Part shown: positions 14,675 through 46,870 of the stretch, in pieces | Layout of the letters: each line of letters starts with the position of its first letter | How positions within the stretch are numbered: position 1 is the stretch's first letter | NCBI GenBank assembly: GCA_903813345.2 | Contig: CAIIXF020000009.1 | Location: 12,084,030 to 12,148,029 of the forward strand | Origin: Owenia fusiformis | Taxonomy: Eukaryota; Annelida; Polychaeta; Sabellida; Oweniidae | Length of the DNA stretch: 64,000 nucleotides | Reading direction: 5' to 3' | The notes under the pieces: model-generated | What the model was told of the DNA's origin: nothing | Databases searched by the model: none | Seen by the model: the letters and a program-made list of their open reading frames with translations, nothing else | Made by a program: the position numbers and the translations under genes

Positions 14675-14842
14675 AGTGGTCGCTATGATCTTCCAAGTTG
14701 GCTGTCCAAGGAGAGTATACAGATTTTGGATGCACTTCTTCAAGTCGATCCAAAACGACGAATCACAGTCCAGCAGCTGCTGACACACCCCTGGTTACTG
14801 AAACAGGAGAACATTCCCGTAGATTATAGCTCAAAATATAAG
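14675..14842 (+). CDS. MELK: MELK exon: end of kinase domain
   Basis: 56 codons, phase 0. Encodes SGRYDLPSWLSKESIQILDA, then LLQVDPKRRITVQQLLTHPW and on to DYSSKYK. DPKRRIT...HPW is kinase subdomain XI, closing the catalytic domain. Acceptor TTTTAG, donor GTAAAC. Confidence 0.95.
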
Positions 14843-14930
14843 GTAAACAGGAGAGATTGCAGCTCATAATATAAGGTCAAAAGGAGAACATTCTTGAATT
14901 TTTAGCTCAGAGTGTAGGATAAGAGGCTCA
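14812..14930 (+). repeat. Decayed tandem copies of a MELK donor junction
   Basis: The exon end plus donor (GATTATAGCTCAAAATATAA then GGTAAACAGGAGA) is followed by a copy reading GATTGCAGCTCATAATATAA then GGTCAAAAGGAGA, and by a third, weaker copy around 14896-14930. The donor is GTCAAA in copy 2 and GATAAG-like in copy 3, so both have decayed. Confidence 0.65.
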
Positions 14931-15159
14931 GAAAGATGTCAAACGGTGATAAGTAAAAAAATAGAGAAAAGCAGAATGTTTTTTCCCAAACTTGATTTCT
15001 TTTTGAACAATGTTTCACTCCTAGGACTGGTGTTGGAGAAAGTAATTCAAAACACAATATACAATTGTAGACCTCTCTTGAGGTCAACTGGCAAAATTGT
15101 ATACTGACCTTGTAAACCTTGAATTGAGTATTTCATTTGAGGTACTAACAATGTATTTT

Positions 15160-15475
15160 GTACCCTTTGCATTTGTTTGACTTCACTTCTTAAAAGAATG
15201 CTTGTCTTCACTCTCAATTTACAATAAAACTCTGATCTCACCGAGAAATACAGACGAATTTCTATATGGCAATTTTCTCTGACATCACCGCATAGTTAAT
15301 GATCATGTGTTCCTTCCACTTCGCTGATTGGTTGAGAAAGGGTAAGGGTGGTAGATTTGAAATAATTTATTACCTGGGCTGTCACAGGCACTAATCTTTG
15401 GGGCAGGGCAGCTAAACTGTAATATAGTCTATACTAAGCAGAGGGTAGTTTATAACTAGACCCTGCACACAGTGT
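15160..15475 (+). repeat. Dispersed repeat, copy 2 (CpG-depleted)
   Basis: Diverged copy of the block at 3530-3905, in the same orientation. Most CpG sites of copy 1 appear here as TG or CA, for example CTGACATCACCG against CTGACGTCATCC and CCCTGCACACAG against CTCTGCGCGCAG. It ends about 46 bp before a MELK acceptor, so it occupies most of that intron's 3' part without disturbing splicing. Confidence 0.7.
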
Positions 15476-15521
15476 ATGTATTTTGTGAGATATCTTACTA
15501 AATTGTGTTTCCTTTTTGCAG

Positions 15522-15611
15522 ACATTTGAACACCTTGATGAGGACTGTGTCACTGAACTCGCTGTCCATTATGGTCAGACCAAGAAAGAAATGAAAGAAC
15601 AGCTATCAGAG
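15522..15611 (+). CDS. MELK: MELK exon: UBA-like region, part 1
   Basis: 30 codons, phase 0. Encodes TFEHLDEDCVTELAVHYGQT then KKEMKEQLSE. LDxDCVTEL is characteristic of the autoinhibitory UBA-like segment that follows the kinase domain in MELK. Acceptor TTTTTGCAG, donor GTTAGT. Confidence 0.95.
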
Positions 15612-15958
15612 GTTAGTTGATTTCATTTGAGAATTTCTTCAAATTGTTCTAACAAAGGCTTTCTTAACAGGCAAAAGTAATGAAATGACAGAAAAAGTTG
15701 AAAAAGTGAAATTGTAATCGTTTGAATTATATAGAAATAAATAGCAATAACCTAAAAAAAAAAAATTCCAAAATAGGCAAAACAGTGACAAAATTCCAAA
15801 ATAGGCAATGTTAATTGCTGTTGTTAAAAAGCCTTCAGTACATATAAAATTTTACTGTTTTGACATTGGAGTAATACTGACTATAAATGATTTTTTTAAA
15901 CCTTTGACACCCTTATAAAAAAGAGATTATTTCAATAATTTTTTTGTTAATATTCCAG

Positions 15959-16069
15959 TGGAAGTATAACTACCTTACTGCCACCTATCTGCTGCTATTG
16001 AACAAAAAAACTTGCAATAAACCCATCAGACTTCTACAACAGAAGAAAACACTCAAAGAAAACAATAAG
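15959..16069 (+). CDS. MELK: MELK exon: UBA-like region, part 2
   Basis: 37 codons, phase 0. Encodes WKYNYLTATYLLLLNKKTCN then KPIRLLQQKKTLKENNK. The LTATYLLLL core is diagnostic of MELK. The donor used here is assumed to be the first AATAAG|GTATGT at 16069. It is repeated downstream, so the exact exon end may vary. Confidence 0.9.
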
Positions 16070-16215
16070 GTATGTATCATGTACTCAAAGAAAACAATAA
16101 GGTATGTACTCAAAGAAAACAATAAGGTATGTACTCAAAGAAACAATAAGGTATGTACAAAGAAAACAATCAGGCATGTACCGGTACTATACACTAAAGA
16201 AAACAAGGTATATAT
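16048..16215 (+). repeat. Tandem repeat of a MELK splice donor (about 6 units)
   Basis: The exon end plus donor, ACTCAAAGAAAACAATAAG|GTATGT (two parts of 19 and 6 nt), is repeated in units of about 24-32 bp. Six donor-like sites follow one another: four GTATGT, one GCATGT and one GTATAT. The frame after the first donor stays open to 16249, so use of later donors would lengthen the protein instead of stopping it at once. Confidence 0.9.
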
Positions 16216-16402
16216 TAGGGGTACCGCTCACCAGTATGTAAACACTTAAAGCCATGCTCTGTTTTCCAAAGATTGAAAGTGAAGATATTTTTCTGGTATA
16301 TCGAATTTCATGGTCATGGTAATATCAGAAGATGATTAGGTTCAATGTATCAAATCCTATGCCATGGACATTGAGGCTAAAAACTGGAGATTCTTGGGCT
16401 TT

Positions 16403-17040
16403 AACTGCCCTAATGCCCATCTATTTTCCTCACACTAAATAGACTTCTCCAATGTTCTCCAATGTTCAACACAGTTAAGGTAAACAAATCGAAGACCTGC
16501 GCTACAACCTCAAGATGGTTCCAACTGCCCTAATGCCCATCTAGTTTCCTCACACTAAATAGACTTCTCCAATGTTCTCCAATGTTCAACACAGTTAAGG
16601 TAAACAAATCGAAGACCTGCGCTACAACCTCAAGATGGTTCCAACTGCCCTAATGGCCATCTATTTTCCTCACACTAAATAGACTTCTCCAATGTTCTCC
16701 AATGTTCAACACAGTTAAGGTAAACAAATCGAAGACCTGCGCTACAACCTCAAGATGGTTCCAACTGCCCTAATGGCCATCTATTTTCCTCACACTAAAT
16801 AGACTTCTCCAATGTTCTCCAATGTTCAACACAGTTAAGGTAAACAAATCGAAGACCTGCGCTACAACCTCAAGATGGTTCCAACTGCCCTAATGGCCAT
16901 CTATTTTCCTCACACTAAATAGACTTCTCCAATGTTCTCCAATGTTCAACACAGATAAGGTAAACAAATCGAAGACCTGCGCTACAACCTCAAGATGGTT
17001 CCAACTGCCCTATTGCCATCTATTTTCCTCACACAAAATA
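16403..17040 (+). repeat. 120-bp minisatellite containing a piece of a MELK exon
   Basis: Five full units of 120 bp start at 16403, 16523, 16643, 16763 and 16883, nearly identical, plus a partial sixth at 17003 that runs into the real intron end and exon. Each unit carries CCAATGTTCAACACAGTTAA followed by GGTAAACAAATCG, which matches coding sequence inside the next exon (about 17106-17138), and the same upstream intron stretch (TCTATTTTCCTCACAC) but lacks the 65 bp with the true acceptor. The unit is therefore a deleted intron-plus-exon copy. Confidence 0.95.
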
Positions 17041-17063
17041 CATGCCTTTTTGATTCATTCCAG

Positions 17064-17307
17064 AACAAGGCACTGAACCAGAGTAATAGTGACCCATTCG
17101 CCTCGCCAATGTTCAACACAGTTAAGGTAAACAGATCGGTGAGGAGACGACTCGAGACAGACAGTAGCGATAATGAGGGGAAAGAAAATTTCATTGTGCC
17201 TCAGACTCCGAGGACCCCCAAGCCTAAGCGCACTAAGAGTCCATCTTCAACACAAAAGAGAAGAGTTCATAGGTCACCTACCACTCCTTTATCTAATATG
17301 TTAAACA
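17064..17307 (+). CDS. MELK: MELK exon: linker with TP motifs
   Basis: 244 nt, enters in phase 0, leaves after one base. Encodes NKALNQSNSDPFASPMFNTV onwards, including SSDNEGKENF and IVPQTPRTPKPKRTKSPSS. The basic, Ser/Thr-Pro-rich, low-complexity sequence fits the unstructured MELK linker, a likely phosphorylation target. Acceptor ATTCCAG, donor GTGAGT. An internal AAG|GTAAAC at 17126 resembles a donor and is the one copied in the upstream minisatellite. Confidence 0.92.
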
Positions 17308-17664
17308 GTGAGTATCTACTCTCATAATTGATTTTATCGGGAATATATAACCGTCATAATTTCATAACTAAGGACCCAAATTCTCATAATAAAGCTGAGC
17401 AATGCCAGCTAATAATTAAATAAATAAATAAATTTTTCAATTAAAACGTTGAAATGAAAAACACATGCCTTTGTCAGTTTTGCATATTTTAATATTCAAA
17501 CTCATTATAAGTTATCAATCATAAATCCTGTAGGAAGCCACCACATTACGGTTTTGTGTCTAATATCAAACTTTTGAATAATCTCCCGAAGTTTATGAAT
17601 TTATAAATTAAACTCCATTTACTAAATTGAAGAGTAGCTGAAACTAGCTGTATATTTATTTTAG

Positions 17665-17794
17665 CACCAAGCAAACAAAAGACAGATGATCATTTAATCA
17701 ATTCAACGTTGTCGCCATCACGCTCTATGGATTCCCAGCTGAATGCTATTGCAATGAACACTCCAACCAAAACCCCAGTCAGCGCCACAAACAA
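17665..17794 (+). CDS. MELK: MELK exon: linker
   Basis: 130 nt, phases 1 to 2. Encodes TPSKQKTDDHLINSTLSPSR then SMDSQLNAIAMNTPTKTPVS and ATN. TPSK matches the human linker motif. Acceptor TTTTAG, donor GTAAGC. Confidence 0.9.
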
Positions 17795-17840
17795 GTAAGC
17801 GAATTAAGAATATTGGACTGTACTCAGTCTAGGCATTTTT

Positions 17841-17995
17841 ATGTCACCACCACAACTTGTGACATATTGTTATAGTCTCTAAATATTTTTGTGTGGATGG
17901 TGATCAGTGGTTGGTGTTCAGCATTAGGCGTTTGGTGTTCTGTGGTTGGCATCTGTAACAAATGGCATGTGGTGACATTTTGCATGTTAATGCCT
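17841..17995 (+). repeat. Dispersed repeat with GTCACCACC / GGTGACAT, copy 1
   Basis: ATGTCACCACC, TGTGACATATTGTTAT, GGTTGGCATCTGTAACAAAT and GGTGACATTTTG occur in the same order at 34613-34770. The unit is about 150 bp, non-coding, in a MELK intron. Confidence 0.7.
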
Positions 17996-18398
17996 TGTAT
18001 ACCTTACCTTTAGACAATTCAGTTTCACATTGTTATATTAAGTTCTTGGGATTGTTTCAAAATATTGATGTTTGGGAAGAATGTAATTGATGACATTTGA
18101 AGACCAGAACCCGTGAATAGATTTAATCGAACAAGAACTTTTGAATAACAGTGCAACAATTTTAAACTGAAATTTTCTGTACTACCACCAGATCTAAAGA
18201 TGTATCTTTATTTGGATACTGGTTGCTTTTATTGTTGTATGCATGTAGAATAGAACATTTCCTCATTTTTTTCTTACATTTTTATTCTGTTTTCTTCTTT
18301 TTTTTTATTGCTGTTAGATTAGAAAAGAGATATTGCAATATCATAGGATTCTTGGCTAGTTTAGTTTCAATTGATAGTTCTTGTATAATTCATTTCAG

Positions 18399-18566
18399 GG
18401 AAACTTTAAATCCTCCCAGCAAGTTCTACTCTGAGACACCAGAGGTCTCTGACAGTGAGGCTTCAGAGCTAGAGATAGATTCAGGATCTGATTTTGTATC
18501 AGATGATGAAATTATTACACCCATTCGAAATGACATAAAATTTAATATCTGGCCTGAAAATGATAG
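18399..18566 (+). CDS. MELK: MELK exon: acidic linker
   Basis: 168 nt, phase 2 in and 2 out. Encodes ETLNPPSKFYSETPEVSDSE then ASELEIDSGSDFVSDDEIIT and PIRNDIKFNIWPEND. Rich in Asp, Glu and Ser. This part is poorly conserved in the family; it is assigned by phase continuity and splice sites (TTTCAG, GTATTG). Confidence 0.85.
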
Positions 18567-19332
18567 GTATTGGTTTCAGAGTACAAGCGCTTTGGCTAAG
18601 TTAACCTGTTCATAGTATTAACTTGTTCATATAGTGTTGCCTAATGTGGCTCAAGGGGTGCTTCGGATATGCGTTAATTGTTAAATGCTTACCTTTTGTT
18701 TATTTCTTTATAGGTTGTGGCTTTACCTAAATTACAGTAAAACTTGTTAAAGATTCTGAAAACACTCATTATTGTAATAACAGGGGCAAACAAGGTTTTG
18801 AAACATTGTTTTTTTGCAAAATAGTCTTACTGTAGCTTACACCAGCTAGTTTCTCCTAAAATCTTTTCTTTGGTAGATTATCATAGCTAGCTTTTCCTTG
18901 ATATATCACTTAATTTTACATTTGAGGAATAGTTGAACTGTACAGAATAATTGTATGGAATATTTAAAAATGTAATGATTACAAATGTACATAATTATCT
19001 AATGCAATGTTTTAACATAATTTTTCAGTACTTGCTTATTCCATGCACACGTAAGAATAAGGTTCACTTCGCAAATAAAAAACTATGTCAACCAATCATA
19101 CCTACATATTGTGCTACTAATCCTCCAACTCTTAAATGTATTGAAGTAATGGACAAACATAGAAACATCTGTCTACATTCAACACATATCTACAGTTAAA
19201 CCTGTACATCTAAATTGTGAGAACACCTTACCTTATATTTATAAGTTGTATTGTATTATAAATATTAAATCAATTGTGACGAGACCTTAATTTTCTCTAT
19301 TAATTAATAATTTATAAATTTTCTATCTCTAG

Positions 19333-19498
19333 GTGTTCTTCCATGGACGGTGGACTGGACAGGACCAGTGATCGAAGTAGCGGTTTTGACACCCCCAGTA
19401 AACGCAAGGGCTTTGGTAGTATTGAGAAGGGACTGAACAAAATGATCAACATGTTAACACCAAGAAAAAAGAATGCGGATGGGCCTAGGAAAGTCAAG
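19333..19498 (+). CDS. MELK: MELK exon: KRKGFGSIEKGL motif
   Basis: 166 nt, phase 2 in, 0 out. Encodes SSGFDTPSKRKGFGSIEKGL then NKMINMLTPRKKNADGPRKV K, matching human 'TPKRKGAKVFGSLERGLDKVITVL...DGPRRLK'. This conserved segment precedes the KA1 domain. Acceptor CTCTAG, donor GTATGT. Confidence 0.95.
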
Positions 19499-19541
19499 GT
19501 ATGTTCAGAGAAATGTCTAATTACAGAAGGGATCAATAATA

Positions 19542-20536
19542 TACAGGGTGTCTCAAAAAAATTTACCCAAAAGTATATCAAGAGCACAGATAAACCAATC
19601 AATATTTTCAGACATTTTTTGCATAGTCATGTTGCCAAAACTTGAAAGTTTTCTCCCCAATACACCATTTTTATTTCAGTCTTGTCTTCTTGATGCTTTA
19701 ACCCTTTACCTTTTACACCACATAATCGATGTAACCTCATATTTCGATGACAGCCTTTATCTTCACTGCTACATTGTTCATCATATTTGATAATAATTCC
19801 GGTGGAATGTTTTGGATTTCTCTTTGGATGTTGCCCTTAAGTTGTTCTAGGTCTTTTTGCTTGGAATGAGCATTAAAACACTCCCTCAAGTAGCCACAGA
19901 GAAAGATGTTCGAGGATGACTATGGCAGAACAAACACAGATAATCTGGTCAATTATCGGCAAATGATTCAGGAGTTACCTTCCAGAGTTATGCAGGCTAG
20001 CCTGGAGACCAAATGATATCCAAATGAAAACACAGTGGTCTCAAATTGATACACACAACTAAAGCTACTCTAGAATCCCAACCAATGCAGTTTCTTGATC
20101 CTCTGACCTCTTTGTATAAGGGGGCTATAAAACATTGTGGGGGCCTCCCTATTAACCATATTTAACGGCCCATACTTTTTTCTCTGAGGCTATTTGAAGG
20201 ACCATTTTTATGCTAAACCCAAGCTAAGAGACCTAGAACAACTTAAGACCAACATCCGAACAGAAATTAAAACATTCCACCAGAAATATCAAATGTGATG
20301 AACAATGTAGTAGTAAGGATGCAGACTGTCATCGAAATATGAGGTTACATTGAATATGTGGTGCAAAAGGTAACAGGTTAAAGTATTAAAAAGGCAAAAC
20401 TGAATTAAAAACTGTGTATATGGGAAAAAACTTTCATCTTTTATCTACAAGACCATGCAAAAAATATCTGAAAATATTGATTGGTTTGTCTATGGTGTTG
20501 ATATACTTTTGGGTACATTTTTTTGAGACACCCTAT
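19542..20536. mobile_element. Mariner-type element arranged as an inverted dimer
   Basis: The ends are ACAGGGTGTCTCAAAAAAAT and its inverted counterpart ending ATTTTTTTGAGACACCC. Inverted arms of about 330 bp face each other. The left arm, read on the minus strand, encodes DLEQLKGNIQREIQNIPPEL, the C-terminus of an IS630/Tc1/mariner DDE transposase. The right arm, on the plus strand, encodes FFL*GYLKDHFYAKPKLRDL then EQLKTNI, the same region with a stop. Two transposase 3' ends thus point outward in opposite directions. Both copies are broken. The element sits in a MELK intron. Confidence 0.85.
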
Positions 20537-20539
20537 ATA

Positions 20540-21860
20540 TGTACAAGTATGTCCGTAATTGATTGTGAGGTGGAGGGATTAAAGATCCATTATGTTTTGA
20601 TTATGCACCATTCAAAGGTTTGTGTAAGTTGTGGGGGTCGGAAATTATTAGAATTTTGACTCCTATTTGATCAGCCATTATTGTTCATAGCATGGGGAAA
20701 TTGACAATTTAGATTGCTTGCTACCAGGTAAGGGGATAGGATAGCCCAATTTCTGTCAAAAATCCACCCCTTCCTGTGTTTTGAGACAACATTTAAATAT
20801 TGAATATGTCCATTTAATTCATACAATAACAATTCTTTCTTGCTTAGAATGAAAGATGGCGTGCATGCATAAATGTCTGAACTTGTCTGTAAAGATGGCA
20901 TATCATTTGCAAATAAATACGATATACCACTTATGTATTTCTAAAAACAAACAATGCATCATTCCTCAATAAAGATCCTCATTAAAGAATTTTAAATGGG
21001 TATTTTGCATTTTTATGACATCATGTTTTCATCAGAATTTCTGAAAATAGACAAAATAATGAATGGAAAAAGTTGCAAAATTCCTTAGAACAACATTACT
21101 TGTCATTTAACAAAAGAAAATTGCCTCTGCCCCCTCTTCAGTGTTCATCGAATCACTATTATGATGCCTACAAGGTAACAACAAAACATTTTGGGTTATC
21201 TTTGTGAACAATGTTTCGTGAAACCTAATGATCCATTGTACGTCATATAACTATATGAATGCATACAGCAGACAACTAGGCAAACAGTAGAATCACTGCC
21301 CACTTATTGCTAATTTCCCACTGGATTATATGCTTTGAAATCATATTCATCATCTTCCCTGCCTGAGTTTGAAATACAAATCTGGTCTTATTTTTATGCT
21401 CTAAAACTGAATAATATCCAGTGTTTTGAGATTATTTTCTGTTCTTTGCAATTTGTAGTTTCAAATGCACACTATGCCAACTTAAGAAATTGGGTTAGAT
21501 TGAAAATAGCACTTGCATATGATATTGACCACTAGAACATCATATTTTTGGGTATCGATTGGTTTCAATTTGTGTAGAAGTCTATTAAAATGAAAATGAC
21601 CATCTATGCTGCTTCATGTAATGGTATAACATACTAGCCATTTTTGAACCAATCAAATTGCAACTATCAATAAGTTCTACTTTATTGGGTTTTTTTCAGA
21701 TTTCAGTTGATTCACTCTTGTACATAATCTCTGGTCTTCCATTGTTATCTACTCCAAATTAAGGAAGGTTTGATGGGTAAACACGGGCACTTGGTGTGAA
21801 ACGTTTAATTTCAGAAGAATGATTTAAGAATATGTTTTGTTTTTAAAACATTATGCTTGA
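20540..21860. other. MELK intron without recognisable features
   Basis: AT-rich, with short open frames only. No repeat, RNA gene or exon was recognised between the mariner element and the acceptor repeats. Confidence 0.5.
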
Positions 21861-21863
21861 CTC

Positions 21864-22131
21864 TTTGTTTCTTTGTATTTCAGCTGATACAGACTTGTTT
21901 CTTTGTATTTCAGCTGATACAGACTTTTGTTTCTTTGTATTTCAGCTGATACAGACTTTTGTTTCGATGTATTTCAGCTGATACAGACTTGTTTCTATGT
22001 ATTTCATCTGATACAGACTCTTGTTTCTTTGTATTTCAGCTGATACAGACTTGTTTCTTTGTATTTCAGCTGATACCGACTTGTTTCTTTGTATATCAGC
22101 TGATACAGATTCTTATTTCTTTGTATTTCAG
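21864..22131 (+). repeat. Tandem repeat of a MELK splice acceptor (9 units)
   Basis: Units of 30-32 bp read TTGTTTCTTTGTATTTCAG then CTGATACAGAC. Each contains a pyrimidine tract and an AG acceptor; eight of nine end in CAG and unit 5 has CAT. The ninth is the junction of the KA1-side exon at 22132. The exon start CCAATGCAGAAT resembles the unit's CTGATACAGACT, so the repeat probably began as a copy of intron end plus exon start. Confidence 0.95.
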
Positions 22132-22235
22132 CCAATGCAGAATGTATCCAACACAACATACTATAATGCTGATGGGGTCATGGACAAATTGAAAGAAGCA
22201 ATCACAGACAAGAGGGTCCACTACAAACAAGTCGG
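22132..22235 (+). CDS. MELK: MELK exon: KA1 domain, part 1
   Basis: 104 nt, phase 0 in, 2 out. Encodes PMQNVSNTTYYNADGVMDKL then KEAITDKRVHYKQVG, aligning with human 'YNVTTTRLVNPDQLLNEIMSIL...VQKG'. Donor GTAGGT. The acceptor shown is the last of nine tandem acceptor-like units. Confidence 0.93.
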
Positions 22236-22722
22236 GTAGGTGGCACATTGTTATTTTTCATACATACGAGATAACCACTGAAAAAAGGCATAATCACTTT
22301 CAGTTTGTAACTCACCTTGAATAACATCAACTCTAAATCAGAGTACTCTTTCAGGCTTGTATGCTGCGGGACTATTATAATACATTCCATAAGAAATCCA
22401 TCCCTTCCCTAAAGGTTTTTGAATCATTTAGGGAAAGTCCCTTAGATACATATATTACCTCTTTTTATAAGGGCGCAGTGTTACCTTGATTTAAAGATAT
22501 GATGTACTTTTTTGCCAAAGCAAAATAACGCCTGAGGTTGGTCATTGAAAAGTGAAGGAAATATCAAGAAATTTCCATGTTAAAACATTGAAACGAGTAC
22601 AGAGAATCCTGTTAAGTTGAGCATCTCTGCTAAATGCCTCGCCAGTGGAACACTATTCCAAGGTACCAAAGGCATTCCACCTTCCAAGATTTAACTGCTT
22701 ACCTGCCCTTATATGGTTGCAG

Positions 22723-22900
22723 ATACACCCTCAGATGTAGCGTGATGGATGACTGGGGCAAAGTACACCTTGCATTCGATTTAGAAGTCTGCCAGCTCCC
22801 TAAGACTGAAGCTATGGGGGTGAGGAGGAAGCGCGTCAAGGGAGACACATGGCATTATAAACGCCTGTGTGAAGACATCTTAGTCTCTGCTAACATATAA
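22723..22900 (+). CDS. MELK: MELK terminal exon: KA1 domain and stop
   Basis: 178 nt with TAA at 22898-22900. Encodes YTLRCSVMDDWGKVHLAFDL then EVCQLPKTEAMGVRRKRVKG and DTWHYKRLCEDILVSANI. This is a strong match to the KA1 domain of MELK (membrane and autoinhibitory module). The exon begins after TTGCAG at 22722; the open frame upstream of that is intron. A possible AATAAA polyadenylation signal lies at 23382-23387. Confidence 0.97.
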
Positions 22901-22917
22901 AGTAAGTATATAAGCAT

Positions 22918-23123
22918 AGGGTGAGTCAAAAAATCAGAGAATTTTATACGTTGTTATAGTTTCTAATATTTTATGAAAAAAACATAATGTAAAGGACAAT
23001 ATTTGAAGAAGGCATGCATATAAAAGATTTTAAACCATAGCAATCAATATTAATATATTGTAAACTTAAAAAGAAAAATGTCAAATGAATACACACAAGT
23101 TCTCATTTTTGTTGTCCCACCCT
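22918..23123. mobile_element. Short mariner-like MITE
   Basis: Inverted ends AGGGTGAGTCAAAAAATCAG and TTTTTGTTGTCCCACCCT bound about 206 bp of AT-rich DNA, starting 18 bp after the MELK stop codon. If the MELK 3' UTR runs to the AATAAA at 23382, the element lies in the UTR. Confidence 0.6.
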
Positions 23124-23739
23124 GTAGATAAGTTTTCCCATGCATCAGTCATGCTTAACTCATGCATTGGCAATGCATCTACCATGCATTATCTATGTTC
23201 ATACATTGAGAAAAATGAAGTATTTTAAAATGTTCAGACCTGTGGTGTTTTTATTTTCATATTTGAATTGTTATTCAATCCCTCTATACTAAAATATATC
23301 ATATTATTCATATGTTTTATGGGGCTTCTATCATAACATATAAACATGAATGTTATACACACACATTATTATTCATTAAATAATAAAACAATATATACAT
23401 AGTTTTATAAATAATGATAGTTTGTAATTTATGCATGTTTACCTGGGGGTCATTAAACTTTGTAAAGTTATGAATTCATAAATCAATTGTTGTTACCATG
23501 GAAATAATGATGTCATAGTAAGAGAACAATGGACTTTACGAATTCGTAATTTTATGAAGTTTCTGTTAATGGCCCCCTGATTATTGTTTTTGCATTATTC
23601 CATGTTAGTATAAACTTATTTTTAAGTTATTATTTTTATATAATTATTCGTTTTTTTATTTATTTATTTATTGCTATCTTTGCAATTTTATATCACATAC
23701 CCTGTCAACAGAGTGCAGAATATAGCTTTTTATCCCATA

Positions 23740-24100
23740 CTTGGACGTGTTACAGGTACATAAAGCCGGTTTGTAAAAACTTATATTTTCATCAGCGGGC
23801 AGATATAGCTATACGTCCCGCTCTGAGCGGGCAGATATAGTATATCTGCCCGCTACGTCATAATCGCCGCTCGCATATTTGTTCATAATTTGTAACGTTC
23901 GCGTTATGACTGTACACGACAATGGAGAAAACACAAACAATCGGGATCTGTTTGATGGTTTAAAAAGGGAAGGAGCATCCACTTAATCAATCAAAAATTC
24001 GAGAAAATAAATGGTGGAATATTTGAGGGAACAGGAAAACCCGCCCACGGCCAAGAAAACAAAACTGGACATGAATATTCTAAAATATTTCCACGATTGA
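23740..24100 (+). mobile_element. CpG-rich patch with short palindrome and Crypton-like scrap
   Basis: This patch has many more CpGs than its surroundings. A perfect palindrome with 14-nt arms, AGCGGGCAGATATA and TATATCTGCCCGCT, spans 23826-23854, and the half-site is repeated at 23794. A 29-codon ORF (24011-24100) reads MVEYLREQENPPTAKKTKLD then MNILKYFHD. It resembles the N-terminal part of Crypton-type tyrosine-recombinase proteins of invertebrates. That match is from memory and weak. The patch is probably a fragment of a recent element. Confidence 0.45.
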
Positions 24101-34770: not shown

Positions 34771-37700
34771 TAACATAGTAATCTATGGCAGAATAAAAAT
34801 AGACCTGAAAGCATTCACAATAAGAAGTGTTCAGATCATAAAGGTGTTCATATATACAAGTTTTACTGTAATGTAACAATGTATTGTAATGTAAAAAGCA
34901 ACTGTGCATTAAAATCTAGCAACATATATTTAAGCTTTAGTGAAAAATGGGGAACTTGTGTGGCCAGAACATTTTGGACAAGAAACACACTTGGTGGTTA
35001 ACCATTATTCATGATGTTAAATGACCAAAAGGGTACTATTCTTAATTCAGCCACGCTTAATATTCTGGACATGTTTAAGAAATATTTCCTAGATTTTTCC
35101 AGCTCATAAATTATACTGGACATACAGGGCACTAGAGAGAATGATGTATTACCAGTTTTGTCAGTTTTATATTGGGTTCACTCTTTACTGTGGATTAACT
35201 AGATGTTTCATCCATATCTGTATTTTTTATTTTTGTCACATGCTCCTTTCCATCAATTTCTTTTTCGGTCGAAATTTCTACAAATTTTACATGTATCATT
35301 TATGTTTTAACAATTATTAGTTGTAAATAAACATATATTGTATTTATCTGAATATACTTTAAATCACATATTTGTGTTCAATTACTAATATAAGTTTCAA
35401 GTGATCTTCTGGACTTATACATCTGACGGATATTCAACATTGTTCAAAATACTTGAAATGTGAAATAAGTCCTGGGGGGGGGGTTATTCTGTGGCTTCTT
35501 TTGTTTAACTTCGGGAATGCACAAGCACATCTGGAAAAATAGTACTGAGGGAGACAGAAACTTGAGATTAACTAAGGGAGAGAGAGTATAGATTTCTCCT
35601 TTAGGAGACCTCATGAATTTAGTTATATTGATACTAGATGAGGAACAACTGAAATAGAATTTCCAAGTTTTTACACACTTGGTTTAAGAGGTACCCACCC
35701 ATGTTAAAGTTGACATGCTTGACCAAGAATTTGAGGACGTTGGGGGCTATATTGTAATCAGTTTTCTTAAAATTTTGTTTTAAGAAAATTAAGTTCATAA
35801 CTTATTTCATTTAGAGTTTCATTGCAAGTATTTTTTACTTTTTAATGAGTAAGTCAAAGGATGTTCATTTTATTCCTGAATTCAAGCATGTTTGTCATGT
35901 TTTTAAAAGTCCCTAAAATCTTTCTTGAAAATTTGCAAAGAAATTAATTATCATTATTATAATTAAAAAAATATTGCATTAAACCAGTTATTTTGTACAG
36001 GTAGTGTTTGCATATGAAGTGCTCATTTTCAAAGACGATTATTAATTAACTAATTGAAGCTTTAAATGGAGAAGTTATAATTGATTGCTCATTCCAAGTT
36101 TAGAGTCCAATTTATGAAATAAAAAATTATTTCCATTTGAAAACTTAGTTCAGAAATGTAATAAATTACGAAATATGATAATCCTATAATTAAAAGTTCG
36201 TTGACATTTCAGGGAATTTTTTTTTATTTTGATGATTTATGCGTCACTAAGTGCCGATTGTTGTGATGTGTCGAAGATAGTAATCTTTAAAAAAAACTGC
36301 TAGGTCACTTTTAATGTAATTGTGGGAACCTTTAAATCTTTTTAACAGACTCGTTTTTTTATAATAAATATTGAAATCATATTGTGTACAAGTCTTATCA
36401 TGTTTTTTATTCACACATAATTTACATCTACCCTTTTCAATTATATAAACACAATTTGAGAATTTAATTTTATTATCAATTTTAATTATTTAAATCATAA
36501 AATATCTTTTGTAGATTTAAAAGTGCATATAAGCTTTCACACAAGTTTATCAATTCCATGTTATTTTGTTATTTTTCTTGTTTTTCATGAATAATTGAAT
36601 ATTATTTGTTTGGGGGAAAACAATGCAGTTTTGGCTATAATTATAACATGACAACCCTTTGTTTTAGGTTTAAGACAGATGAGGATTTAGTTAATACTCG
36701 TGCTGTGTGCTTTCTTCATCAAAACATTAACTTGTGAACAAACTATCAAAATGTTCACACTTATTTCATTCCAATTTCACAAAAGTTTGACCAAAAATAT
36801 GATTTTTTTACATTTCTGAACATTTCAAAATCTGCTTTGATTTTGTATTGATTTAACCACAGAGATTGTTGCAGATTTCATGATATTCTGAGTTTGAAAA
36901 AATAAATGTTGTATTATTTTTATTCGGGTATATTCATTTTGAATTTTGATTGAACTGGTGCACGGTTTCAATATGAATCCCGGTTTTGTTTGCCTTATAG
37001 ACAACTGACTGAAAACAAACTCTTTGATTATGCTCAATGAAAAAGTTGGTAAATATATAAGCATAATGTATCAGCATTAATGTTTTCTTTGTTGTGGATC
37101 CCGGGTTGTGGATATGATTGTTATCCAATGGCCTACATAGTTTGACCCTGTATTTTCATTCATTGAGGTTAGTTAAGATTGCAAAAATGGATATTTTCAT
37201 ACAACGAAACTATGTCTTCTTACTTTGTTTCATGTTGTTCTATATCACACTTATGCGAATGCTCCCCCTCATTCACCAAATAAGAACATCTATGTTAATG
37301 CAAACCACTTTTTTCGAAAATACTTCCTTTAAATTGCTAGTACATGACTAACCAAAAAAAGGAAAAATAAGTCAATCTTGAAATGTCAAAATGGACATCA
37401 TTTATGAAAATATTTCAAAATTTTTTTGTAAAAAAGGACCGTGAAAATCTATGAAAATATATATGGAGATACCTCATACTGTTAAAAGGACAATAATATA
37501 GCTGTTTCTTCACATTCTGCTGCAAATTGAAAGTAATTTTGATTCATTATTCACATGTCTTATTAATCACACTGTCCCCAAGATAATGTAAAATTTCTGA
37601 ATCATCTAAATATCTGGATTATTAACCGCAAATTTATGGATTATCGTCTTTAAAAACCCCAGAGAATTCCAATTTAGCACCAGTGAGAATAATATTAATA

Positions 37701-37940
37701 AGATAATTAATAGTTTAATTAAACTGAGATATTGTAAGTGACTTTCAAATGATTATTTAATTTAATCGCTGAAATTGTCTGTATTGACGGGAGGTTATAT
37801 TTGCAGAGGTGTTTAAAGTGTTTGTAGATGATGTTTAAAAAAATAACAACTTCAGCTTTCTATCTCAGTAAATTCATAAATTACAATAATGTTTGATTTT
37901 GTGTCATCATTATATTGTACTCATCCAAACGATTTCAATA
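34771..37940. other. Intergenic stretch, no gene recognised
   Basis: Very AT-rich. Short open frames only, none with recognisable similarity. Confidence 0.5.
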
Positions 37941-37949
37941 TGTCCATAC

Positions 37950-38110
37950 GGTTTTCTCTCATTTTCTTGAAAATATTTGATTAAACTGGCTCATGTTTTT
38001 GTGTTTCTATACAATTTGGAGTGTCAACAAAAAGCCTAGTTGGTCCATTCCTTGCATTTTCCTTATTTTCTTGGAGTATTTCTCATTTTAAAGCATGACC
38101 TTTGTGTTAA
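37950..38110 (+). repeat. Fold-back repeat family, forward arm
   Basis: Carries CTATACAATTTGGAGTGT, TCCATTCCTTGCATTTTC and TCATTTTAAAGCATGAC in the family order. A weak reverse arm (38425-38520) follows about 300 bp later. Confidence 0.65.
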
Positions 38111-39840
38111 GTTCCACGAGGTGTTTGATTTGTTTTCAATGATTCACATAAACTGGTCATCAATTAAATTGAATTTATACATGACATAAAAGACATTGTA
38201 CTTGTAAATAATATGTATTTAAACTATAATCATCAATTTGTCATGTTTGTATAAATACAAAAATATGAAGTAAAAATGTGAAGTAAAAAAACAGAAATAA
38301 TATTGAGAATAGATATTTATGGGTGGAATTCTTGAAAGAAATAAAAATCTTTTGGTAACTTATTTAAATGAATATTATTGTATTACAGCAAATGGCCATA
38401 AATCTGTACAACCTTGATTAGATCTGTCTCTTCTGTTACAAATTATAGAGAAATAAGAGTGGAATAAGCATGGAAAGTGGGGAATTTAATGATATTTGAA
38501 TTGCCATGGAGATTGAGAAATAATCGAGACTACATTTCCCATTTTTGAATATCAAACTAAAATATCAATTTCAATAACCAAAATTCTGTATGTTATAATT
38601 TTTTTTTGCACCTTGAATTTCTTGCAATTTTTACAAAACATGATGCTTGTAATTTTTTCTCTTATTTCACTACTTCTGTGCTTTTTTCATGTTTTATAAA
38701 TGACTATTGTGCTATTTTTCACACAGGTATGTATACATCGGGAGAGTGATTAAGACGTCACCGTCATGCATGAACAGAGCCCTAATATTGGAAGTACAAA
38801 TTTATGACAATTTTTTTATTTCTTTTGTCAACAATATTCAGCCGTTGCATTTAACATAAATATTTCTTTGTTATCCAAACTCTTGAAACTTAGGAAAATC
38901 CCAGTGAAGTCTAGAAATAGTTCCATGGGGATATCTTGTTTTGTAGAAATAAAAAATGAGATAGGCCTATGTTTTATTCAATCATTTATGATTAATTGAA
39001 AAACGTATATTAATCTTCATAAAACAAATTGGTGATTTTAGTAATGTTATGCATATATAAAAGAATAGACAGACAATCACTGTAGTGGTATAGTATAAAA
39101 CATATGTATTTTATAACTTTATGTAAATTGTACAAGAGTTCAGCGAACATAGGCAAGATTTCAATGAATACTGGCAAGATTACATTGAATCCTAGCAAGC
39201 TCTTCAAATGTCTGGCAAGACTTGTGGCTAGCTTAATATCTTAGAAAATTGTGTCATGGGCGCATTATATATAAATGTTTCTCTCTTAAAAATGATAAAA
39301 ATACCATTCATTTCATGCTTACTCATTTCTACATCTGTATTGACCCATTGTCATTTCTAAACAGCATAAACTAAAATCCTCACTTAATATCATTGTAATA
39401 AAATATTATGACTACATAAAAATCATAGTACATTTTTGAATATAGCTTAAGTTTGCAAACGTCCCAGCTCGTTATTGCAGTCAAATCCCTATAAATCAGA
39501 ATAAATGCTAAGTCCCAAAAGGACATCATGTTTTATTGGAACAATCTTCAGATTAATGATATCATAACACTGAAACCGAATTCATAAGATCCAAAATATA
39601 ATTTCAATTTCCAATCCTGAAATGTTGCATGATCTTTTTTATTGTGTTTTATATAGCCTTATTTTATTTTGATTAATGAATAATTGTCACTCAGAATTTG
39701 AAATGATATACAAAAATAGGCTTATTGAAATATTGAAAAATATGTTCCTTACTCCCAACATCTTTGGAGAAATACCAAGAATTGCACTTTTCCTTTAATA
39801 TTTGATTATTTTTCAGTCACATTGCACCACCTTTAATAAC

Positions 39841-39916
39841 TAGGCAAGATGCATGGCACCTAGGCAAGATGCATGGCACCTAGGCAAGATGCATGGCACC
39901 TAGGCAAGATGCATGG
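39841..39916 (+). repeat. 20-bp tandem repeat, about 3.8 units
   Basis: TAGGCAAGATGCATGGCACC repeated without change. Related but degenerate GGCAAGATT motifs, spaced about 25 bp, occur at 39145-39225. Confidence 0.9.
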
Positions 39917-40649
39917 TTTTAAATATATACATACACTGGTTCGTTAGCATGAATAACAGTTTTAAAATGCAGTCTAAAAAGTCTAAAAACTTTTTTCCTT
40001 GTAGGATCTGAGAAATGCTGACTTTAAAATGGTATATCCAAAATGGAATTTTTCTTTCTTTTTAAGAAAATACTAATTTTCATCTTGAGTACACCCATTT
40101 AATTAAATGTCTGTAAGTTACAATCCTTTAATGATCTCTTAAAGCATTTATGTAAGCCACACCCCTTTAAAGGATCTCTTAAAGCATGTATGTAAGTTAA
40201 TCCTAAAATGCTAATGTAAATGAACTTTAAAAGAAATACATGAAGATCTACTGTATAAATATGTACAAATATCTTACAAACATGGAGTTCATACCCCCCC
40301 CCTAACATATAAATTGAAATAGCTACCACACTGTAGCTGTTGTATAAGTAAAAATAGCTGTTGTATGAATAAGCTATTTTACAGTTAATTAAATCCACTG
40401 TAGTTGCATGTTTCTCACACATTATGTAAACCCCTCATATTGTCCATTTAGTCCTGGGGATTATGATTCTCCATGGCACGGGTTTTGAAGTTCATGACAG
40501 GATTTTTGATCCTGGAGATTTCAGTCCTCAGATATGACTCATCCCATATTATGATCCAAGGATTTATGGGACTGTAAGTTGGTGCTCAGCACAATGGGAC
40601 ATTTGAGTATTTAATGTCCCAGTGTAAAAGGTCCTATATATAGCTAGTG

Positions 40650-40732
40650 TTAGCAACGTTCTGACTTGTAATTGGTTGAGGTGGGGGACGATTCTCCAGT
40701 TCTTGATGGGGGTGCGTAATAGTAGGACGGGT
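40650..40732 (-). CDS. Pax2/5/8: Pax2/5/8 terminal exon (YYY motif and stop)
   Basis: Minus strand, after acceptor TTTCAG. With one base from the previous exon it encodes NPSYYYAPPSRTGESSPTST then NYKSERC and TAA at 40652-40650. The SPYYYS-like start is the invariant beginning of the last exon in vertebrate PAX2/5/8, and the intron phase is the same. Confidence 0.9.
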
Positions 40733-40990
40733 CTGAAAGTACATGATAAATTCATTTAAACATATATGATGTTGAAAAGAAAATTGTATCCCAGAAAATG
40801 AAGTCTCACGTACATGCTCGTGTATTTCTTTCTTTTCAAGGAACCATCTAATGTTATACTATGCAACTGTTTAAAAATTTATAATCTTGTGATAAAATGT
40901 CCCATTTGTATGCGTTTATTAATTGAACCATCTCACAACTGTATCAGAAACAAATGTCCTATGACTAAAAGTCCTCTTTCTATTACTTAC

Positions 40991-41104
40991 TCATTAAAGC
41001 AGCACTAGATCCTGCATATCTCATAGTCCATGCTGAGTCTGCGTAGGGAGGGGTGGTGCCGTATTGTGTGTAAGGGACTGATGCATATGTACTGTAATCA
41101 CTAC
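40991..41104 (-). CDS. Pax2/5/8: Pax2/5/8 exon: C-terminal TYA/WTMRY
   Basis: 114 nt, phase 1 in and out. Encodes SDYSTYASVPYTQYGTTPPY then ADSAWTMRYAGSSAALM, corresponding to vertebrate 'PYSHPQYSSYNDSWRF'. Donor GTAAGT at 40990. If the donor is not used, the frame ends two codons later (SK stop), and a minus-strand AATAAA lies at 40920-40915. Confidence 0.93.
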
Positions 41105-41114
41105 CTGTAATCAT

Positions 41115-41270
41115 ACAAAGTTGAATAATATGAAACAATGTTGAATAATCTGATTCAAAGTTGAATAATATGAAACAATGATGAATAAATTGATTCTAAG
41201 TTAAATAATATGAAATAATGTTGAATAATCCAGTTCAAAAATGAATACTATAAAACAATGTTATTTTTAC
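41115..41270 (-). repeat. Tandem AT-rich repeat beside a Pax acceptor
   Basis: Units of about 40 bp (plus strand: AAAGTTGAATAATATGAAAC then AATGTTGAATAATCTGATTC) repeat about 3.5 times and stop about 11 bp before the exon. Unlike other arrays in the window, the splice site itself is not in the unit. Confidence 0.75.
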
Positions 41271-41749
41271 ATTATTGTTTTAAATAAATAATTCATTTTT
41301 ATACTTTATCCTATGCATGAATTTGCATCATTGAATAATACTGAACTTAAAAATGGTATTTAGGTTTTGAAAAAATGAGATTATCTTGAAATTATCAAGA
41401 TTATTGGCCAATTCTCAGATAAGTCAATTGATATTAGCAGTTATAATTCATAATTCATCCATTACTGTTAAAATTGTCAATTTTGTTTTACTTCACACAT
41501 TAATTTTAAATCTAAATGGATTGTTTTATTGTTTATGGTGTGATTTAAAAGTGATAAATATTTATTGTTTATTCTTTAATTATGGTGATTATAAATTGAA
41601 ATGTGGATATAGGTTGAATAGTTATTTTTCCACAAATCGAAATTAATCGAATAAAATTTATCTTGATGTATTTTTGTGTCTAATAATAAATCAAGATTAA
41701 AGAATGATCTAAATAATAATGTTAATTCAAGGATAGTATGTTTTAAAAT

Positions 41750-41895
41750 TCAAAAGGGCATGAGAAATGGAAGAAATTTGGGGATATGAAGTAAATGGGG
41801 ATGTAGTCAACACTCTAAATTGTATAGAAATGCCCAAAAATTAGACACTTCATTCAAATTTTAGAGAGAAATAGAGTGAAAAAAACATGACTTGG
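41750..41895 (-). repeat. Fold-back repeat family, reverse arm
   Basis: Reverse complement of the family: ACTCTAAATTGTATAGAAAT, TTCAAATTTTAGAGAGAAAT and AGAGTGAAA on the plus strand. Confidence 0.7.
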
Positions 41896-43324
41896 ATTCA
41901 GATTTTCTGAATGGGATTCCTCAAAACAGCTGGCAACTGAATCCACACACAACTAAGAGACTGACAATTTCATATCCGTTGCTACGGCAACAGTTTCTCT
42001 TGGTTGATCATGCGAATCTTAAAAGCGCATCATTTAATTAATGGATTTAAAGGCAAGTTTATCATAACAGTGTCAGCTTTATACTGAATCTCGCTGCCTA
42101 GTCAACCGGAACAACTCAGTGTTATGTATATAGTCATTAACAAATTTCTTTATGAAGGGCCGGGATTATAAATATATCCATGGTTCATTGATTTCATCCA
42201 TTAAACCTTGCAAGCAATGCGACAAATTGAGATAATCCAAATTATTATGTATCTTTTATTCATGTCTATCTAAAGATCCCCAGCTAATTTTTAAGTCTCT
42301 TTGATTTGAAAATAAAAAGTCTGGGAAATGGGGTATGTCTAATGCAGTGACATCGGAAGTGTCAATTATAAGATGAAAAAATGTTTCATCTTTATGTCGA
42401 GTTTGTTTTAATCTATTTTTAGAAAACATCCGGAATTGAAAAATGTTCTCCCAAGACGTTATTTATATCAGAGCACTGGATTATCCCGCATTAAACAATA
42501 ATAAAAATATCAATTTTGAAATTTCCGACAAACCTAACGGGGATTCATGTTGGGTACATTTCTGATATCACAGTTAAAAAACTTCTGTTTTTCGTGAAAG
42601 TCACAAATTTATTTCCGGGTTTGAAGTTTCTTGGGTGTGGTATATATTTACTTAACTGTCAATTTAATCTACTTCCTGGTTAAGTGTTTTTCTACATGAA
42701 CAGTTGAATGGTTCCAGGGTGGTGTTCACTGACCCCAGGTACAAAAAAATCAAATATGATAATTCCCAGATTAGTGTTCGCTTACACTCCAAATATCTGA
42801 CTCCTGGGAAATTTAAATTTTGGAAAGTGTCACTGTCTGATCTCATTTATTTCAATACACTTTCTTTCAAATTTGAAACATTTATCTGAATTTCTGTCAT
42901 TTGATAAGTTTTGACTGTTCTTTTGAGATAACTGTACATTTTGTTCTTTGATTTTTTTCTATCATTGAATTTCTAAAACAAAGCAATTCTATTGAATAAG
43001 TCGTCAAAGCAAAATACTGAATTTTTTCTTCTATTTAATTGTATATTTGAACATAATTCCTTTAGCTAAAAATCCTTACATGTCATATTTCACTTTGATA
43101 TTATCCTGGGATATGTTTAGAATTTATTCATATCTCTATTACAAGACAAAATAATGGGAAGGTTATACTTAAGTTCACCTTATGCATATAACTAAAGATT
43201 ACCAGAGTATTATCTTAAAAGTTTTGGCATTTTGTTTAAACGATTGATAGATCTAGGGTGTTATATTTATTGTTGTTCAATTAGGCCTAAAGTGACGTCT
43301 GCATATGCCTATATCACTCAAATT

Positions 43325-43460
43325 CTCTCTAAAATTTGGATGAAGTATTGAATTTATGAGTATTTTTATACAATTCAGAGTATTGACTACGTGTTGGTGT
43401 ATTTTATTCCTTGCTAATTCCACTCTTTTTCACTCTATTTTGCATTTTAAAACATGACTA
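43325..43460 (+). repeat. Fold-back repeat family, forward arm
   Basis: One of the best-preserved arms: CTCTCTAAAATTTGGATGAA, TATACAATTCAGAGTATT, TTTATTCCTTGCTAATTC and TGCATTTTAAAACATGAC. Confidence 0.75.
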
Positions 43461-44924
43461 TATGATGATTTCTTTGCAGGTCAGATATAAGTTTATGTTT
43501 TACATCACCCATTAATCACAGTCTTCACCCATGAATGCTTTCACCCCCACACCCAGAAATAAAATGTTTTGGCTGACATTTTAAATCTCCAAACAATAAA
43601 TAGTATAATCAGCAAGTAATAAACAACTAATATTGTAGATTGTAAATGCATTTCATTATTACAGGATAAGATTATAAAATTATTATGAGCTGAATAATTT
43701 TTTTTAAATTTTTTATTTGTGCATCCATGAATTTATGGAGAATATTAGAGTGTAGTATAAACCTTTAGTATTTACTTATTCATTCTTGAATATTGTAGTG
43801 CTATGATCATTATTTTGGCTCTTGGAATCTGGGTGGCTACTTTTTGTTTTCTTGGATACCAGTTAGTAACATGTTACTTGCATTATTCAATTTAGATAAC
43901 ACCTGGCTTGATAGCACGCCTTGGTGAACACCTAATTCTCACAAGACACTATCTAGACTCTAAGATTTTACAAAACTGCACAGAACATATTTAAATAAAC
44001 ATTTAGTGACAGATCCTAGGTAGGATGATAACCTTACCGTCTTCTTGAGATATGACCCCGTTTTATCAAAACCAAAGATTGAGATTTTAATTCCTCAAGA
44101 CAACCCTTGTTTCTTAAGATTAATGAGAATTTGAAAACTGACCAGAAATTTTTTCTGAAAAGTTTGAATCAACCATAATTGACTCTGAGACTCTAGCATG
44201 GTTAACCAAAAATATTAGAATTTAATAATGAAATTCCATTTGTTAATGTCAGAATAGACCAAAGCATAAATTAGTTCATAGTCTATTCATAATCTTTTGG
44301 GAATAAATAACCAATAAATGTTCATTTTTTGATTTATCCAAATTAATCATATTCAGAAATTGATGGAGGGAAATGCCTTGGTCACTTTTTAATGAAAAGG
44401 ATTAAAGTATTTTTTTGCTTTTTATACAGTTTGAATTTGAATAAAAACTGAACTTTAGTAAATCCATGTATAGAAACTGTAATCTATGAGAGCAATTTTG
44501 ATCTCCTTATATGGGCATATACTTTTGATCGCCTTTGATTTGTGCTAAAATTACAGCAAACAATATATCTTTTGGAAAGGTTTTTAGAATTTTGTATAAA
44601 ATTATAGTCATTTCCCCTGGGGTAGTTATGAAATCTATCTTATGTTACATAGGGGGTTTAACAGAAACATAACAAGTGTTGAAATATGTAAACCGCACCT
44701 GCCAAAGGTGTAAAAAGTCAGCACCACATAATTTTCTAAATCTACGATTACAAAACTGCAATTATAAAACAATACTCGAATCATCAGTTTTTTATTTCCT
44801 GGAGCATATGCTATTAGGTGTTCACTTTCAAGTTTTGGAAATTAAACTGTTTGAAGTTGAGGCTCCCTTCCCCTCAAAGAAATTCCACAATGCCACAGAT
44901 ATTTTAGTGTATTCCCCCAAAACT

Positions 44925-45060
44925 TGAATGAAGTGTATGCTTTTCTGGTATTTCAAGGCAATTTGGAGTTTTAAGTACCCTATTATATATCGTATTCTTC
45001 TATTTTTCCATTCTTGATTCCCACATTTTGAGTTTTAAATCATTTCAATTGTGATATTTT
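44925..45060 (+). repeat. Fold-back repeat family, diverged forward arm
   Basis: Weaker copy with CAATTTGGAGTTTTAAGTA, TTCCATTCTTGATTC and TTTTAAATCATTTCA in the family order. Confidence 0.5.
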
Positions 45061-45934
45061 TCCATGATTTCAATATGTGAGATATCAATCTAAACAAAGT
45101 GAGCCCCTATTAAATGTAAATTTTAGTCGATCAATGATAACCAGTTTCAATATTAATTGTATATGCTGACAAGGAGAAATCAATTAAAAACTCATTAAAG
45201 TTAATAAGATAATAAAACCAACTTCAAAGAGATAAATGGAATTGAATACAGGTCTCCAGTGTTTTAATTCAATGACTTTTATAAGGGACTTTTATATCGG
45301 AAAACACAATGATAAATATATTAATTTCCAAATTTCCAATACTTTTTATTTATTTTGCATACAATTAAAATCATTTACCAATCATAAAATTTGAAAAATG
45401 TTTTTTTATGATGAATAAATGTTTGGTTAATCATTTGACATTAGTAATTAAAAAATAATCTCAAATATTAATTGATTTTATTTACAATTAATCTATAGTT
45501 CCAAGTACATTTTGTGGCACATTATACATATACTGTATAAATATAAAAGTAAACAATTTTATTTACCATGACGGAATTAACAGAATAAACAATTTACAAT
45601 ACTGATAACCATTTAAAATTAAAAAGAACAAAGGGCAACATACTAATAAACAACGACAAAAAGTATGTGATCAATTTGTGATTCCATAAGTTTTTTTTAT
45701 CACCTATTACCTATATTTAAAAGTATTTACATTTAGAAAAGTATTTTATTTAAGAAAGCTTATAATATTGTTGAGTTCATAGTGTGTGATAAAGACTGGA
45801 ATGAGTAAAAAGAAACGTAGGTGGTAATAACATGTGGTGGTACCAAAGGCATAGCCAAGAGAGGTGAGGCAAATGTAAAGTCTTGGTGAGGTATTTCTCT
45901 CCTGGTTGGGCCTCTGTGTACATTAAGTGAGTGT

Positions 45935-46374
45935 GAGTTACTTACCATTAGTTGGTGGGCTATAAGTAGTGGTGAAGTGAGTTACTTACCATAAGTTGGT
46001 CGGCTATAAGTAGTGGTGAAGTGAGTTACTTACCATTAGTAGGTGGGCTATAAGTAGTGGTGAAGTGAGTTACTTACCATTAGTTGGTGGGCTATAAGTA
46101 GTGGTGAAGTGAGTTACTTACCATTAGTTGGTCGGCTATAAGTAGTGGTGAAGTGAGTTACTTACCATTAGTTGGTGGGCTATAAGTAGTGGTGAAGTGA
46201 GTTACTTACCATTAGTTGGTGGGCTATAAGTAGTGGTGAAGTGAGTTACTTACCATTAGTTGGTGGGCTATAAGTAGTGATGAAGTGAGGTACTTACCAT
46301 TAGTTGGTGGGCTATAAGTAGTGGTAAAGTGAGTTACTTACCATTAGTTGGTGGGCTATAAGTAGTGGTGGACC
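45935..46374 (-). repeat. 44-bp tandem repeat of a Pax splice donor (10 units)
   Basis: Ten 44-bp units start every 44 bp from 45935 to 46331. On the minus strand each reads CACTACTTATAG, CCCACCAACTAATG and GTAAGTAACTC. The unit copies the last coding bases of the Pax exon at 46342 plus its GTAAGT donor, so ten donors follow each other. Each unit also has an acceptor-like TTATAG 14 nt before the donor. The first unit in transcript order (46331-46374) is the real exon end. Units are nearly identical. Confidence 0.97.
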
Positions 46375-46461
46375 CAGGGGGCAGGACAAGTGGGGGAACT
46401 AGACTGTTCATTGGTTGACTGCTAAAAGATGTATGAGTGTTAGTATAGCCTGGCTGACCAG
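46342..46461 (-). CDS. Pax2/5/8: Pax2/5/8 exon: linker with PPTNG end
   Basis: 120 nt, phase 1 in and out. Encodes GQPGYTNTHTSFSSQPMNSL then VPPLVLPPGSTTTYSPPTN, matching the vertebrate PGYPPHVPP...-type segment loosely. Acceptor CTTTCAG, donor GTAAGT. Both ends of this exon have been duplicated into the neighbouring introns. Confidence 0.92.
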
Positions 46462-46870
46462 CTGAAAGAACATAGAATAATACCCAGGTGAATAATAGTT
46501 TATTGACCTCAGTAGAGGTGAATAATATAGTTTATTGACCTCTATAGTGGTTACCACGTTGCTGTTAGAACATAGAATAATCCAAAGGTGATAATATAGT
46601 TTATTGACTTCTATAAAGGTCAATAGGTGAATAATGTAGTTTATAGACCTCTGTAGAGGTTGACTATCAACATGTGGTTGTTAGAATATTATAATCTTGA
46701 GGTAAATGGTAGAATTTATCGACCTTTATAGAGAGGCTAACATGTGAAAGACATGTGAGTGTTAGTTTAACCCATTTTACCAGCTGAAAGAGCATATTAT
46801 AACCCCAAGGTGAATAATATCATTTATTGACCTCTGTAACATGGAATAGATCCAAGGTGCATAACATAGT
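46462..46870 (-). repeat. Duplicated acceptor side of the Pax exon, with AT-rich repeats
   Basis: A block near 46750-46840 copies the real acceptor junction at 46461: plus-strand ACCAGCTGAAAGAACATA at the junction, ACCAGCTGAAAGAGCATA in the copy, with GTGAGTGTTAGT on the exon side of both. Between them a GGTGAATAATATAGTTTATT then GACCTCT unit occurs about five times with drift. Confidence 0.8.

Follow-up and report, generated by a model that had tools for sequence, protein, structure and literature searches.

Tandem repeats over splice junctions of MELK and a probable Pax2/5/8 gene in Owenia fusiformis resemble the mirage minisatellites of amphioxus

Results

In a 64,000-nucleotide stretch of the genome of the annelid Owenia fusiformis (contig CAIIXF020000009.1, positions 12,084,030 to 12,148,029; hereafter the window, whose own numbering is used throughout), tandem repeats lie across splice junctions of two genes, MELK and a probable Pax2/5/8 gene. 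Over both genes together we modelled 19 exons with 36 junctions, five of which are embedded in tandem repeats that extend 6 nt or more to both sides: MELK 14842, 16069 and 22131, and Pax 46341 and 46461. Three of these are donors and two are acceptors. At each of the five the repeat takes in at least 10 nt of exon, and the straddling units, about 25 to 107 bp long, are tandemly repeated on the exon's intron side. A sequence-only reading of the same DNA had reported five repeated junctions in two genes (14842, 16069, 22132, 46342 and 46461) among 19 visible exons; Tandem Repeats Finder (TRF) and our exon models bear out both the junctions and the exon number (11 in MELK and 8 in Pax). We consider it likely that these repeats are minisatellites of the mirage type, that is, neutral duplications across junctions that are hidden by splicing and prolonged by the conserved copy at the exon.

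In MELK, exon 3 (14675-14842, + strand) has its donor in the first copy of a decayed two-copy repeat (14821-14887, +). Its 33-bp unit consists of 22 nt of exon and 11 nt of intron (85% identity), and the second donor copy, GTCAAA, retains the GT and scores below the weakest real donor. At exon 5 (15959-16069, +), TRF reports an array over the donor (16051-16207, +) with six donor copies at a spacing of 23-34 bp. The copies are 91% alike, GT is present in five of the six, and four carry the identical AAG/GTATGT of the real donor (slashes mark the splice point). The last 12 codons of this exon (16034-16069) extend beyond the tblastn match to a human MELK sequence; the array may have added length to the end of exon 5. 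The acceptor of exon 10 (22132-22235, +) lies in an array (21863-22141, +) in which nine copies of the acceptor follow one another at intervals of 30 or 32 bp, in mixed order. Here the unit comprises a tract of about 20 nt plus AG, followed by 10-12 nt of exon start; copies are 90% alike, and AG is retained in eight of the nine. The exon part of this unit, CTGATACAGA, matches CCAATGCAGA in the real exon at 7 of 10 positions. Finally, a borderline two-copy repeat (13901-14133, +; copies about 145-152 bp apart) begins at the exon 2 donor. It starts at CA/GTAAG and pairs 13901-13981 with 14046-14133, with p = 0.048 for the part that reaches the donor.

In the probable Pax2/5/8 gene, both junctions of a single exon are repeated, namely exon 6 in our own numbering (46342-46461, - strand). 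The array over its donor (45933-46370, -) holds 10 copies of 44 bp that are 96% alike, with ATG/GTAAGT in all ten. A decayed array covers the acceptor (46425-46838, -) in units of about 107 bp, with extra copies near 46560, 46672 and 46782, the second of which was placed by eye. The best of these extends over 73 nt at 78% identity, and AG is retained in two of the three. Copy alignment reproduces the counts given by the sequence-only reading at the other junctions (six at 16069, nine at 22132, ten at 46342, and a decayed repeat at 14842). For 46461 it had proposed one extra copy: the repeated junction is there, while the count has to be raised to about three decayed extra copies.

A sixth case is probably the acceptor region of MELK exon 6 (17064-17307, +). 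Ahead of this exon, TRF reports a 120-bp minisatellite (16403-17040, +; 5.3 copies, 98% alike). It had been described as carrying a piece of a sixth exon, and this holds: exon 6 positions 17103-17138 recur in the 120-bp units with 34 of 36 nt identical. When one unit is aligned to 16984-17138, the intron half of the unit pairs with the final, incomplete array copy (16984-17040). The alignment then passes over 50 nt (23 of intron, 27 of exon) that hold the acceptor and resumes, in the same order, with exon 6 at 17103-17138; additional small gaps measure 1, 3 and 5 nt. The array is probably a repeat over the exon 6 acceptor region whose units have lost the acceptor itself, a reading that comes from a single alignment whose independent part is the exon piece, its order and its distance.

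We then considered what the spare splice sites would do if used. Ten of ten donors in the Pax array and four of six in the MELK exon 5 array score equal to the real one. Use of any of the eight upstream exon 10 acceptors (one of them without AG) would lead to an early stop, and so would use of each of the three further Pax donors tested, out of nine. In exon 5, one of the four spare donors tested gives a stop, and those at +57, +81 and +138 are in frame. Compared with the remaining positions of the unit, the splice cores of spare copies show no significantly stronger conservation. Changes at core versus other positions number 0/81 versus 7/315 for the Pax donors (p = 0.20), 2/36 versus 4/56 for exon 5 (p = 0.56, four of five copies used), and 1/24 versus 8/216 in the remaining comparison (p = 0.78). 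Relative to its array consensus, the real copy differs at 4 of 30 positions in exon 10 (copies average 1.12), at 1 of 44 in Pax (copies 0.78) and at none of 23 in exon 5 (copies 1.5).

The sequence-only reading had judged the number of repeated junctions to be far more than chance predicts. An excess is supported inside the window; its strength is not settled to that degree and depends on the test, with p ranging from 5e-5 to 0.48. All placement tests are post hoc and concern one window that was picked for its odd look, a choice that the p values ignore. For TRF, 31 rows were merged into 23 arrays, and 118 rows at score 30 were left out. Of the 23 arrays, four have a junction within them where 1.24 are expected (p = 0.03), and six lie within 12 bp of one against 1.52 expected (p = 0.002), the latter count including arrays at 41115 and 50448. 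These two were examined as junction repeats and rejected: each is separated from a junction by 10 bp, and its similarity to that junction does not exceed the level of shuffled sequence (p = 0.69 and 0.71). If each array is treated as one seed of unit length, four fall on junctions where 0.39 are expected (p = 7e-4). With a second detector, 5 of 18 loci are at junctions against 0.76 expected (p = 0.001). That detector returned zero matches of score at least 20 in 20 Markov sequences, the initial null having been one Markov sequence.

Restricting the comparison to the two gene spans, five of nine repeat loci straddle a junction against 0.95 expected (Poisson p = 0.003). Gene-stratified simulation of the same loci gives an expectation of 0.86 when 1 nt per side is required (p = 3e-4) and 0.74 when 6 nt per side are required (p = 5e-5). 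Under the latter setting, three of five loci straddle a junction in MELK (p = 0.009) and two of four in Pax (p = 0.004). Units in these gene-span tests were set to 40 bp for the locus at 41110 and 107 bp for that at 46425, above the smallest offsets (20 and 69), a choice that makes the expected count larger. The junction counts leave out the exon 6 acceptor case and the borderline exon 2 donor. Tests scored by position speak against the excess: over 15 settings, 2 to 9 of the 36 junctions resemble their flanks (p 0.05-0.48), and a gapped version finds 4 of 36 against 1.5-1.8 expected, with 30 bp masked on either side, so that it is blind to the 33-bp exon 3 repeat. Because much of the repeated intron sequence consists of the junction arrays themselves, position-based tests count array growth as background, and we therefore give more weight to the tests that place units.

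The gene models behind these counts come from tblastn matches and joined in-frame exons. MELK occupies 13346-22900 on the + strand, and the probable Pax2/5/8 gene runs on the - strand from 61245 down to about 40648. The reading frame is open through all exon models of both genes, and internal exons are preceded by AG and followed by GT. The MELK protein matches the Pfam families UBA_MELK (E 5.7e-23) and KA1 (E 2.9e-12), and MELK structures are the best PDB match of its first 187 residues (E 1e-70). A human MELK probe gave no convincing match to the N-terminal kinase exons in 1-13327; these exons either lie outside the window or were overlooked upstream of 13346. The identity of the - strand gene is weaker than that of MELK, and we call it probable. 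Its name is based on a match of 61301-61038 to human PAX5 (E 0.008) and on the octapeptide YSINGILG. No Pfam family matched the Pax-like protein, and a search against Rfam returned 0 matches.

MELK and the probable Pax2/5/8 gene adjoin tail to tail. Human MELK and PAX5 likewise adjoin each other on chromosome 9, with the same orientation, and the adjacency may be a very old gene order. Across the window, GC content is 28-35% per 4-kb bin. Intron 9 of MELK contains an element of about 1 kb (19539-20540) with long inverted arms (254 nt at 85% and 99 nt at 80%), perhaps a DNA transposon. Outside the genes, a short open frame at 8358-8489 weakly resembles the ATP synthase alpha/beta C-terminal domain (E 0.015, which does not pass the cut-off) and is perhaps a gene fragment. 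At 11973-12862 a long sequence occurs in two direct copies at a distance of 429 bp. A perfect 33-bp duplication at 63348-63414 resembles an acceptor on the - strand (tract plus TAG); no coding evidence was seen there, and it was not counted.

Discussion

Because use of spare sites would mostly bring stops and splice cores carry no significant extra conservation, neutral copies hidden by splicing are the best reading of these arrays. The results also fit the earlier suggestion that repeats are tolerated at these positions since splicing hides them. Each array would have originated in a single tandem duplication across its junction. The outer copy, still joined to the exon (the first donor or the last acceptor), would continue to supply the junction, and the spares would be removed with the intron, leaving message and protein unchanged. 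Slippage or unequal exchange would later enlarge and homogenise the array, and mutation would erode it; in this account the spare sites need have no function. Identity between copies falls from 96% at the Pax donor through 91% at MELK exon 5, 90% at exon 10 and 85% at exon 3 (with its weakened donor) to 78% at the Pax acceptor, which we read as a range of array ages.

The least certain step is that junction arrays would be commoner than arrays in intron interiors mainly through the selected copy at the exon end. That copy cannot be deleted and would stay an intact template, such that its array could outlast others and re-expand. As a conjecture, we favour this anchored persistence as the reason for junction placement over a preferential start of duplications there.

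Several points weigh against neutral, splicing-hidden copies as the full account. Equal tolerance in intron interiors predicts zero junction excess, yet an excess is observed, and the anchoring idea is itself conjectural. Silence in splicing is an assumption, since the scores of many spare sites reach that of the real site. The in-frame spare donors of exon 5 (+57, +81 and +138) could add residues, and the absence of changes in the Pax donor cores (0/81) goes in the direction of selection without being significant.

The alternatives are not mutually exclusive in their odds, as seeding and chance concern placement and are compatible with copies hidden by splicing. As the sequence-only reading also proposed, duplication might itself favour splice junctions as starting points; breaks linked to transcription, or structures formed where exon meets intron, could for example be the cause. 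We regard such seeding as possible, if doubtful. The gene-stratified placement (five of nine loci against 0.74-0.95 expected) speaks for it. So does a reading of the nine loci one by one: a junction takes part in six of them and marks the start of a seventh, an eighth is 6-10 bp off, and the last (55760) is far from any. Against it stand the choice of a single window for its look, the weak per-position tests (p 0.05-0.48) and the fact that longer persistence at exons would produce the same picture.

That ordinary minisatellites simply landed on junctions in one repeat-rich stretch seems unlikely to us. Plain overlap amounts to only four arrays out of 23, with 1.24 expected (p = 0.03), and the range of the position-based tests together with the after-the-fact choice of the window favours chance. 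The placement of five of nine loci, with the repeat unit as the placed item, argues the other way, as do the at least 10 nt of exon in the repeat at all five junctions and the involvement of both genes.

We find it improbable that the arrays are functional, i.e. that spare donors and acceptors are kept for splicing regulation or protein variety. The equal scores of ten of ten Pax and four of six exon 5 donors and the three in-frame sites would suit such a role, but the cores lack significant extra conservation, the tested spare Pax and exon 10 sites lead to stops, the exon 3 copy scores below the weakest real donor, and the 120-bp units carry no acceptor. False tandem copies made by the assembly are hardly credible, as the copies differ by scattered substitutions and length changes, unlike duplicated assembly paths.

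With five or six junctions of a single window affected, the cause of mirages becomes testable by comparing young with old arrays and junctions with introns in this genome. If junctions are seeded or protected, tandem duplication has a concrete route to intron gain. As one tentative, joint proposal, tandem duplications in a non-lancelet animal might be preferentially born or preserved at junctions genome-wide, and such a preference would keep up a stock of duplicated splice sites for alternative exons and new introns.

Comparison with known systems

The sequence-only reading knew of no standard name for such repeats; in this it was mistaken. In the portions of the literature available, "mirage" minisatellites are named in amphioxus, in Adh3 and the globins BflGb6 and BflGb9 (PMC3087553), and a second paper (PMC3902484) includes troponin C as well and draws a comparison with like repeats in PGBD5. 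Globin reverse-transcription PCR (RT-PCR) and Adh3 data suggest that the copies leave splicing undisturbed, copy number varies between haplotypes, and mirages are treated gene by gene with their cause called unclear (PMC3087553, in the parts available). Cephalochordates are the sole hosts reported in those parts (PMC3087553, PMC3902484). As judged from the letters, the junction repeats described here appear to share the structural mirage features that we tested. There, as far as reported, and here, tandem copies of an exon-intron boundary occur at 5' or 3' junctions, and many but not all copies keep AG or GT; reported amphioxus units of 10 to about 160 bp are likened to the units here. A further mirage trait is an array homogenised internally with its boundary copy left out; here the real copy departs from the consensus more than the average copy does in exon 10 (4 against 1.12) and in Pax (1 against 0.78), and less in exon 5 (0 against 1.5). 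The Owenia case differs in affecting several junctions of two adjacent genes, and in the window's low GC content (28-35%); that of amphioxus is higher, about 41%. The parts of the literature examined report neither tandem repeats enriched at splice junctions across a whole genome nor mirages outside amphioxus under that name.

Other systems share single aspects. A 1995 study by Turri, going by its title, reportedly describes a minisatellite that provides multiple splice donors in an interferon-induced transcript, said to be human 6-16/IFI6. The likeness lies in several splice donors being supplied by a minisatellite; that title speaks of sites being provided, whereas the spare donors here would mostly break the frame where tested. 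Earthworm metallothionein has first-intron minisatellites and duplicated fourth exons, which the available text does not describe as junction repeats (PMC12783039). Internal tandem repeats in human segmental-duplication genes, with units of about 30 bp on average, likewise include minisatellites at exon-intron boundaries, some of which alter introns; as presented in the available text, that case differs in concerning recent primate duplicates with transcript support and 27 intron modifications after manual inspection (PMC2812944). In potato RdRp, according to the part of the report available, a tandem duplication also crosses an intron-exon boundary and created a new intron (PMC4974935), whereas in Owenia the copies sit within the intron.

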